Made by a program: the position numbers and the translations under genes | Source: Sulfurospirillum diekertiae | GTDB lineage: Bacteria > Campylobacterota > Campylobacteria > Campylobacterales > Sulfurospirillaceae | DNA: 64,000 bases | NCBI RefSeq assembly: GCF_002309535.1 | Contig: NZ_CP023275.1 | Coordinates: 310,001 to 374,000 of the forward strand | Reading direction: 5' to 3' | The notes under the pieces: generated by a model | What the model was told of the DNA's origin: nothing | The model's input: only the letters and a program-made list of their open reading frames with translations | Databases searched by the model: none | In this document: positions 37,753 to 55,814 of the stretch, in pieces | Layout: every line of letters begins with the position of its first letter | Position numbering within the stretch: the first letter of the stretch is position 1

Positions 37753-37827
<75 letters not shown>

Positions 37828-37940
37828 CTCTTTTATCTAACATCCTCCAAAATAGTCTAAAAATCCCTATAAAATCGGCACTCTTTCGCAAATATTCATC
37901 TAATACAATACAACACAATTTAACCCAAACTAAGAGTCAA

Positions 37941-37961: not shown

Positions 37962-37999
37962 TTTTGATAATTTCTACTTTTCTAAGGAGAATGACTACT

Positions 38000-50530: not shown

Positions 50531-50596
50531 AAACACCTATAAGTTGATGAAATAGTAGTGATTAACGGGATTTACAACAAACACTTATAAGTGTTT
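50531..50596. promoter_or_regulatory. XRE operators
   Basis: AAACACTTATAAGTGTTT (50579-50596) is a perfect 18-base palindrome. AAACACCTATAAGTTGAT (50531-50548) is a degenerate copy. They lie 48 bases apart between the XRE gene and the divergent exported-protein gene. Confidence 0.7.
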
Positions 50597-50649
50597 AATA
50601 AGCTCTTTTACGGTATCCTTTATCCATAAATTAGTCATAAGGAACATCA

Positions 50650-52511: not shown

Positions 52512-52879
52512 CACTATTCACTATCGTTCATATATAAGCTATTTTTGTAACAAAAAATAGAATTTTTCAGATTATTTTTTCTACCTCTATAAGAGGTATA
52601 GGCTATTTTCGTAACAAAACTTTTTTTATCATAACACGCTATATATATGCCATTTTTGTAACAAAATATTCATAGAAGATTTCAAGAATTGCAGTTAATT
52701 TTTTCAGAGGGGATTTTAAAGCCTTTATACAGCACTATTCACTGTCGTTCATAATATAGGGGTTTTATTCCCAAAAATGATTTTAGATGCTACCTCTTTA
52801 GAGGATATGTGCATTTTATTCCCAAATAGTAAAACATCCCTACGTAACTATATATAATATAGGCATTTTATTCCCAAAA
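52512..52879 (+). repeat. two-set, six-unit repeat array, candidate replication origin or recombinase site array
   Basis: Six cores share the frame ATTTT-N5-CAAAA preceded by a TATA-like stretch. Set A (52539-52555, 52603-52619, 52650-52666) has TGTAA or CGTAA in the centre. Set B (52761-52776, 52811-52826, 52863-52879) always has ATTCC. The sequences before the cores also match in order between sets. Unit 1: CACTATTCACTATCGTTCAT / CACTATTCACTGTCGTTCAT. Unit 2: CTACCTCTATAAGAGG / CTACCTCTTTAGAGG, each a small hairpin. Unit 3: AT-rich CTATATATA. So set B looks like a duplication of set A in which all three centres changed together. No gene is seen from 52377 to 53058. Confidence 0.85.
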
Positions 52880-53058: not shown

Positions 53059-53691
53059 ATGGCTCAAACGATAGGGTATATTCGTGTTAGTACCAACAAT
53101 CAAGACTTCCAAAATCAACACCATGCTATTCTTTCCTATGTAAATCAAAAGGGTTTAGGAAAAGTTTCGTTTGTGGAAGTTAAAATCAGCAGCAAAAAGA
53201 GTGAAGAAGATCGAAAGATCGATGAGCTTTTAATAACCCTTCAACCCCATGATCATTTGATCGTCTCAGAATTAAGCCGTATCGGACGAAGCGTGGTGAA
53301 TGTAGTCACTATTGTGAATCAACTTATTTCCAAGAAAGTCAATATTCATATCCTAAAAGAGCATCTTTTGATTGAGCCAGATATGCAAAATCCTTTCACT
53401 GACTTTCAAATCAATATCTTCTCCTCTTTTGCCCAATTAGAGAGAGATCTAATTAGCCAACGTACCAAAGAGGCACTGCAAGCTCGAAAAGCTAAAGGGA
53501 TTAAGCTAGGTAAGCCAAAAGGCACGATTCAAGAGAGTATCTACGATAAAGATCAAGCTAAGATCAAAGAGCTTTATGACTTAGGTGTCAGCCTCACAAA
53601 TATTTCAAAAAAACATTTGGGATATGGCACTATCAAGAGCTTGAGCGAATATGTTAAAAATAAGCTAAATAAAAAGGAGAACCATGCGTAA
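53059..53691 (+). CDS. serine recombinase (resolvase/invertase)
   Basis: 210 residues. Catalytic Ser11 in GYIRVSTNNQ; Arg residues in SELSRIGRSV and in FSSFAQLERDLISQRTKEALQARK. A C-terminal helix-turn-helix at about 165-200 (IKELYDLGVSLTNISKKHLGYGTIKSL). TATAAT at 53027-53032 and AAAAGG before the ATG give it its own promoter. It follows the repeat array directly. It may resolve multimers of an excised circle or act at the array. Confidence 0.92.
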   Translation: MAQTIGYIRVSTNNQDFQNQHHAILSYVNQKGLGKVSFVEVKISSKKSEEDRKIDELLITLQPHDHLIVSELSRIGRSVVNVVTIVNQLISKKVNIHILKEHLLIEPDMQNPFTDFQINIFSSFAQLERDLISQRTKEALQARKAKGIKLGKPKGTIQESIYDKDQAKIKELYDLGVSLTNISKKHLGYGTIKSLSEYVKNKLNKKENHA

Positions 53692-55789: not shown

Positions 55790-55814
55790 ATCCAGCATTC
55801 GGAGCCACTCTTTT
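55790..55814 (+). repeat. attR
   Basis: Second copy of the 25-base repeat: tRNA-Asn 3' end and CTCTTTT, identical to 37810-37834. Only the tRNA fragment is present; the sequence before it (GTATTGTTTTG) does not pair as a tRNA. Confidence 0.93.

Follow-up and report, generated by a model that had tools for sequence, protein, structure and literature searches.

The array at positions 52512-52879 of the window (the whole 64,000-nucleotide stretch of Sulfurospirillum diekertiae DNA that was analysed) consists of two three-unit blocks, A (52512-52666) and B (52735-52879), each of which repeats a short centre of its own. We interpret the blocks as stacked, plasmid-derived sites of different specificity that would be read by protein, most likely as oriT mimics, a tentative reading to which we give a probability of about 0.4. 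With the blocks stacked in this way, the island that carries the array could probably be recognised and moved by helper plasmids of more than one kind.

Architecture of the array

In each block, three cores of the form TTTT-centre-AAA stand behind three position-specific leads, the centre being [T/C]GTAA in block A and ATTCC in block B. By window position, the features are:

52512-52540, + strand: block A lead 1 (CACTATTCACTATCGTTCATATATAAGCT), kept across Campylobacterota
52541-52555, + strand: block A core 1 (ATTTTTGTAACAAAA)
52583-52604, + strand: block A lead 2, near-palindrome ACCTCTATAAGAGGT then ATAGGCT
52605-52619, + strand: block A core 2 (ATTTTCGTAACAAAA)
52628-52636, + strand: block A weaker fourth centre copy (ATCATAACA), 5' of lead 3; tracks the block's centre in relatives
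52639-52651, + strand: block A lead 3 (CTATATATATGCC)
52652-52666, + strand: block A core 3 (ATTTTTGTAACAAAA)
52667-52734, no strand: inter-block spacer, more variable than leads and cores
52735-52752, + strand: block B lead 1 (CTATTCACTGTCGTTCAT)
52763-52776, + strand: block B core 1 (TTTTATTCCCAAAA)
52792-52805, + strand: block B lead 2 (ACCTCTTTAGAGGA)
52814-52826, + strand: block B core 2 (TTTTATTCCCAAA)
52842-52864, + strand: block B lead 3 (ACGTAACTATATATAATATAGGC)
52865-52879, + strand: block B core 3 (ATTTTATTCCCAAAA)

Two three-unit blocks with a switched five-base centre had been described in the original prediction, and this is borne out, the centre being constant within each block and different between the two. 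The leads of units 1, 2 and 3 also correspond in order between the sets, as had been noticed: in both, the unit 1 lead reads CTATTCACT[A/G]TCGTTCAT, the unit 2 lead is a near-palindrome ACCTCT..AGAGG, and the unit 3 lead is rich in TATATATA, followed by GCC/GGC. The form ATTTT-N5-CAAAA, once ascribed to all six units, is exact in four; B1 has G for A before TTTT, and B2 ends in CAAAT. A dyad had been pointed out in the set A centres, and it is present, but it is incidental, as the homologous centres GGAAAC and CGTGAC form none.

The repeat content of the array is far above chance: 24 thirteen-mers have three occurrences each, allowing one mismatch, while only 2 of 200 dinucleotide shuffles contained any such thirteen-mer, and then one at most. 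A whole-genome search with the exact set A core, ATTTTNGTAACAAAA, returned no second occurrence. Two kinds of copy add to those described earlier, namely the weaker fourth copy of set A, whose position is occupied in relatives by ATCGTAACA, ATCGTGACA or ATGGAAACA, following the centre of the own block, and a truncated copy just 5' of lead 1 in most relatives; in A-type blocks the half-copy tracks the block centre. Lead 1 of block A includes CTATTCACT, a match to the Arcobacter butzleri DnaA-box consensus HTWTTCACW (PMC5043019).

The surrounding integrative element

The array lies within an 18-kb integrative element at a tRNA-Asn gene (37753-37827), with the integrase at 37964 and a direct repeat at both ends, one copy inside the tRNA gene:

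37810-37834, + strand: att repeat, left end, overlapping the 3' end of the tRNA-Asn gene (25-bp exact repeat)
55790-55814, + strand: att repeat, right end (25-bp exact repeat)

Besides the integrase, the element encodes a type IIG restriction enzyme, SIR2-HerA, a Fic protein, a helicase, an XRE regulator, secreted and membrane proteins of small size, a lipoprotein, a serine recombinase, a phage-type replisome organiser and an HTH_17 (excisionase-like) protein. Relaxase or type IV secretion genes were not recognised in the 18 kb, and TraG_N has no match in this genome. The element thus resembles integrative mobilisable elements in its integrase, its att site in a tRNA gene, its defence cargo and the lack of recognised transfer genes; it differs in having no recognised relaxase, and its mobilisation is putative. 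The array would be its candidate oriT.

Homologous blocks change their centres in concert

Blocks homologous to those of the window occur across Campylobacterota, in Sulfurospirillum, Sulfurimonas, arcobacters, Nitrosophilus and Campylobacter, with at least eight different centres; each block has three to eight copies of its centre, similarly spaced. The centres seen are GTAAC, CGTGAC, GGAAAC, ATTCCC, ATTCG, CTTTAC, [A/G]TCC, CCTTAC, CGTTAC and AAGGGAAAC. GGAAAC is found in genomes G015 and G051 and CGTGAC at locus 2 of G051, ATTCG and CTTTAC in S. cavolei UCH003, and [A/G]TCC, behind the same lead 1, in Sulfurimonas, Malaciobacter and other arcobacter-type loci. Cores agree within blocks with one exception, ATTAAC at unit 3 of the second S. 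cavolei block. Lead 1 stays constant in most members while the centres vary in concert, and these concerted centres, each repeated in its own block, support the earlier proposal that something reads the centre.

The spacing between centre copies agrees across plasmids and islands: the distances are 64, 20 and 27 bp in window block A, 65, 20 and 27 in the CGTGAC block of G051, 63, 20 and 28 in the GGAAAC block, 41 and 44 in Sulfurimonas, and 41, 64, 20 and 27 on the plasmid pCIG1485E. Among five A blocks, 7 of 129 columns vary in core and lead against 17 of 91 in the spacer (p = 0.003), with limits between these regions drawn by hand on sequences already seen.

Blocks are stacked in the order GGAAAC - GTAAC - ATTCCC, and in the Sulfurospirillum loci that were read the ATTCCC block comes at the end. 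G051, which belongs to the same species as the window, has three loci with different block sets, and the ATTCCC block is terminal in each; as the same block thus recurs in all three, diversity is not maximised. Downstream of the first array in L061, L055, L063 and L065 lies a second repeat set of three to four AAAATCGTTACTCAA-like copies, separated by hairpin-like stretches with CCCTAT..TAAGGG, which may represent a second stacked specificity there. A palindrome, CTTTACATGTAAAG, recurs in intergenic regions of the Sulfurospirillum genomes from which the L085 and L128 flanks derive.

How did the two blocks of the window come to lie side by side? The original prediction envisaged duplication in place, followed by a concerted switch of the three centres. 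This is not supported, because block B is closer to the block of pCIG1485E (85% identity over aligned columns) than to block A (77%), the identity between A and the pCIG1485E block being likewise 77%. To judge from these identities, A and B probably diverged on separate replicons and were then brought together.

Rearrangement within a set, as had been envisaged, is found in relatives: in G015, the tail of A3 follows A1, the junction lying at the core, and in G006, B1 is joined to B3. Ordinary recombination between repeats of about 15 bp suffices for these deletions, and block remnants and internal deletions are common. One remnant of block B, with B1 joined to a B3-like tail, lies at L088:4894 (G000:C1:2014393, - strand), close to where a trpG/pabA-like gene starts; related elements have left ends that resemble this gene start, which may be their integration site.

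Arrays on F-type plasmids, next to a gene of about 200 residues

Direct DNA searches with the window array gave no match among plasmids and phages, and the link to plasmids was reached only via contig L053 and a protein of about 200 residues. On L053, which carries a TraG-like gene, a complete block with centre CCTTAC lies directly before the gene for this protein. The gene family has no Pfam match and is found on plasmids and integrative elements of Campylobacterota (L136:5998-6594, L085:4769-5452, L087:2738-3457, L048:5233-5841), with plasmid members in Campylobacter and Nitrosophilus. Just 5' of the 200-aa gene, an intergenic stretch of the array design is present on pCIG1485E, on the C. 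upsaliensis plasmid NZ_OU701460.1 and on pHRV44, all of which have F-type tra genes; the centre is CCTTAC on pCIG1485E and, on the other two, CGTTAC and AAGGGAAAC. On pCIG1485E and pHRV44 the array lies between an RHH gene with the TraG cluster on one side and the 200-aa gene on the other.

The 200-aa gene is strongly associated with the array, occurring in 8 of the 11 genomes with a lead-1 array and in 1 of 388 others, the latter a Nitrosophilus-type genome whose own array has a diverged lead. The arrays without the gene are those of the window's genome (G000), G015 and G019. Since plasmid blocks precede the gene and G000 lacks it, the window array would most simply be a plasmid-derived site that was cut off from its gene. 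Part of the history behind the constraint on cores and leads may predate this loss.

Which protein reads the centre? In Sulfurimonas-type islands, where the 200-aa gene is displaced, it retains one centre copy (TTTTGTCC) before its start. The centres of pCIG1485E and pHRV44 differ, yet the RHH proteins of the two plasmids are almost identical in their strand sequence, which speaks against an RHH reader. Because the 200-aa gene is linked to the array, keeps a centre copy when displaced, and the RHH strand hardly varies, the 200-aa protein is the probable reader. It is predicted to be all-helical (pLDDT 77), and Foldseek returned no significant fold match, known initiators included. Among viral contigs there was no relative of the protein, and lead-1 matches fell mostly in one phage coding sequence. 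Neither GTAAC nor ATTCCC was found as the centre of a plasmid array, and the resident F-type tra loci of Sulfurospirillum have no array.

Stacked oriT mimicry as the preferred reading

What can be concluded about the role of the blocks? In our preferred reading, each would be one protein-recognition region from a family of F-type conjugative plasmids of Campylobacterota, on which it lies directly 5' of the 200-aa gene and beside the start of the tra gene cluster. The variable centre, repeated three to eight times at set distances, would be read by a single protein, the 200-aa protein being the likeliest, and the constant lead 1 by a factor common to the whole family. Two regions of different specificity would have been collected side by side in the 18-kb defence-carrying element, and a conjugative plasmid with a relaxosome protein suited to centre A or centre B could pick up the excised element and transfer it.

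The match to oriT mimics rests on the position, with the start of the tra cluster (the RHH gene) on one side and ParM on the other, the combination of constant lead and variable motifs, the stacking, and the retention without transfer genes. On pCIG1485E and pHRV44 the array is located in the conjugative transfer region near accessory-protein genes, and the blocks relate to one another as oriT subtypes would, sharing lead 1 and differing in concerted centres. In staphylococci, non-conjugative plasmids stack two to three oriT mimics of different subtypes, with an accessory protein setting the specificity (PMC8136818). The oriT of the pWBG749 family, read by SmpO (PMC8136818), likewise combines a conserved core region with specificity motifs that have diverged, each subtype having copies of its own motif a set distance apart, and two to three mimics of different subtype occur on non-conjugative replicons. 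The window array differs in its Campylobacterota host, its place in a chromosomal integrative element, its three or more cores per block and its likely reader, an all-helical 200-aa protein in place of the RHH protein SmpO; transfer, with its nic site and relaxase, is here putative.

Several observations count against oriT mimicry. Neither a nic site nor a relaxase was identified, the plasmids have no annotated relaxase, and MOB-suite types the array plasmids as non-mobilizable. The palindromes and TATA-rich leads of the arrays are not needed by an oriT, the predicted all-helical fold is unlike that of SmpO, and the position 5' of a plasmid gene, with ParM/StbA nearby, fits an operator or centromere equally. 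Also against it are the recurrence of the ATTCCC block at all three loci of G051 and the failure to find a plasmid with either window centre, or an array at the resident F-type tra loci of Sulfurospirillum. Replication or partition sites are serious rivals to oriT mimics.

The array offers a sequence handle on what appears to be the system by which F-type conjugative plasmids of Campylobacterota are recognised for transfer or maintenance. Its specificity can be read from a short centre repeated at set spacing, so that plasmids and elements can be matched by computer. If the oriT reading is true, stacked oriT mimicry would extend from staphylococcal plasmids to chromosomal defence islands and would suggest how such islands travel with several plasmid types.

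Maintenance, replication and decoys as less likely readings

Unlikely, yet strongest among the alternatives, is a role in plasmid maintenance, in which the 200-aa protein would bind the array as a centromere-like or operator region, and the chromosomal copies would be functionless scars of integrated plasmids. Repeats around a promoter region are typical of partition and autoregulation systems, on all three plasmids a ParM/StbA gene closely follows downstream, and remnants and internal deletions of blocks are frequent. If the 200-aa protein served in partition or in autoregulation, this would account for the plasmid location just as well as an oriT does. On pCIG1485E, however, another AT-rich stretch of repeats, immediately upstream of the ParM cluster, looks a better centromere candidate, and scars would leave both the stacked specificities and the lower variation of cores than of spacers unexplained.

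A role of the 200-aa protein as a novel initiator, with the block as its origin and operator, is unlikely as well; the window would then hold two orphan origins of different incompatibility types. The array shares with iteron plasmid origins its direct, replicon-specific repeats 5' of a plasmid gene, its AT-rich leads and its DnaA-box-like motif, as CTATTCACT in lead 1 fits the epsilonproteobacterial DnaA-box core TTCAC (PMC5043019); furthermore, neither a Rep_3 nor an RPA-family initiator was found on pCIG1485E or on the C. upsaliensis and C. jejuni plasmids. The TTCAC core is present in lead 1 of most members, but of the four plasmid arrays that were inspected, those of pHRV44, C. upsaliensis and C. 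jejuni lack it. The array copies lie 20-64 bp apart rather than in tight tandem, and the 200-aa family is unrelated to known initiators, with no fold match to any. What disfavours a replication origin is that pHRV44 carries a Rep_3 initiator at another place and that, on pCIG1485E, a second cluster of repeats at about 41.3 kb adjoins genes for a 287-aa protein and a DnaB-like helicase, so that on neither plasmid is the array the sole plausible origin. This cluster (L141:41285-41500), with five to six CGAAGCAATTTAATA-like copies, is likely the replication origin of pCIG1485E. The original suggestion of iterons of two specificities was close in spirit, but the neighbouring initiator is not supported as their reader.

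Still less probable is a function as decoys, in which orphan blocks would exclude incoming plasmids by titrating one of their replication, partition or transfer proteins and would accumulate, just as improbably, as a record of the plasmid types met. If true, this would account both for the differing centres and for the persistence of blocks in a defence island that lacks the partner gene, and it agrees with the siting among defence genes, the stacking of several specificities and the absence of the 200-aa gene. However, there are few sites per block, and a plasmid with a matching centre is not known in the genus.

Neighbouring proteins and promoters

The proteins encoded next to the array make poor candidates for its reader, although the serine recombinase and the replication initiator had both been proposed. 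That the array comprises crossover sites of the adjacent, Mpi-like serine recombinase, in two incompatible sets, is highly improbable. The two are adjacent in G000, G015 and locus 1 of G051, deletions join units at the core, and among 30 genomes examined the recombinase is present in 5 of 11 with an array and in none of the 19 others. Nonetheless, they are separable in both directions: the array occurs without the recombinase in G006, S. cavolei G021, G023 and the plasmids, the recombinase occurs without an array upstream in L055 and L135, and in G019 they are 17.8 kb apart. Nor do the cores have the inverted arms expected of such sites. The best NCBIfam match of the recombinase (window 53059-53691) is the model for the Mpi multiple-promoter invertase, below cut-off; at locus 3 of G051 (L083:1829-4104), an IS21-type element splits the recombinase gene beside a three-block array.

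The replication initiator at 54.8 kb is no better placed as reader: in G015 an unrelated initiator and regulator stand beside the same block B, none stands beside the array in G006 and at locus 2 of G051, and the array is separable from the phage-type replisome organiser in relatives.

Least probable of all are six small promoters making short RNAs with a common 5' seed, as also considered in the original prediction: a TATA-like lead does precede each core at a fixed distance, but promoter matches are not in excess, there are no terminators, RNA folding is no better than in shuffles (z -0.54 and -0.39), and Sulfurimonas arrays change one arm of the apparent hairpin without compensation. On this folding, and with no Rfam match, an RNA element was rejected.

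Three further candidates were rejected. The integrase (371 aa) is closely similar in G006, locus 2 of G051 and S. cavolei despite different centres, and in G051 the motif upstream of its gene is independent of the centre. The HP1021 box, TGTTACA (PMC6052347), matches centre A only. The XRE neighbour has a palindrome before its gene, AACACTTATAAGTGTT, that is absent from the array. This palindrome lies between the XRE gene and a divergent small-protein operon, both in the window (50582-50597) and in the epsilonproteobacterial contig L055 (3195-3210); conserved between this contig and Sulfurospirillum, it is likely the operator here.
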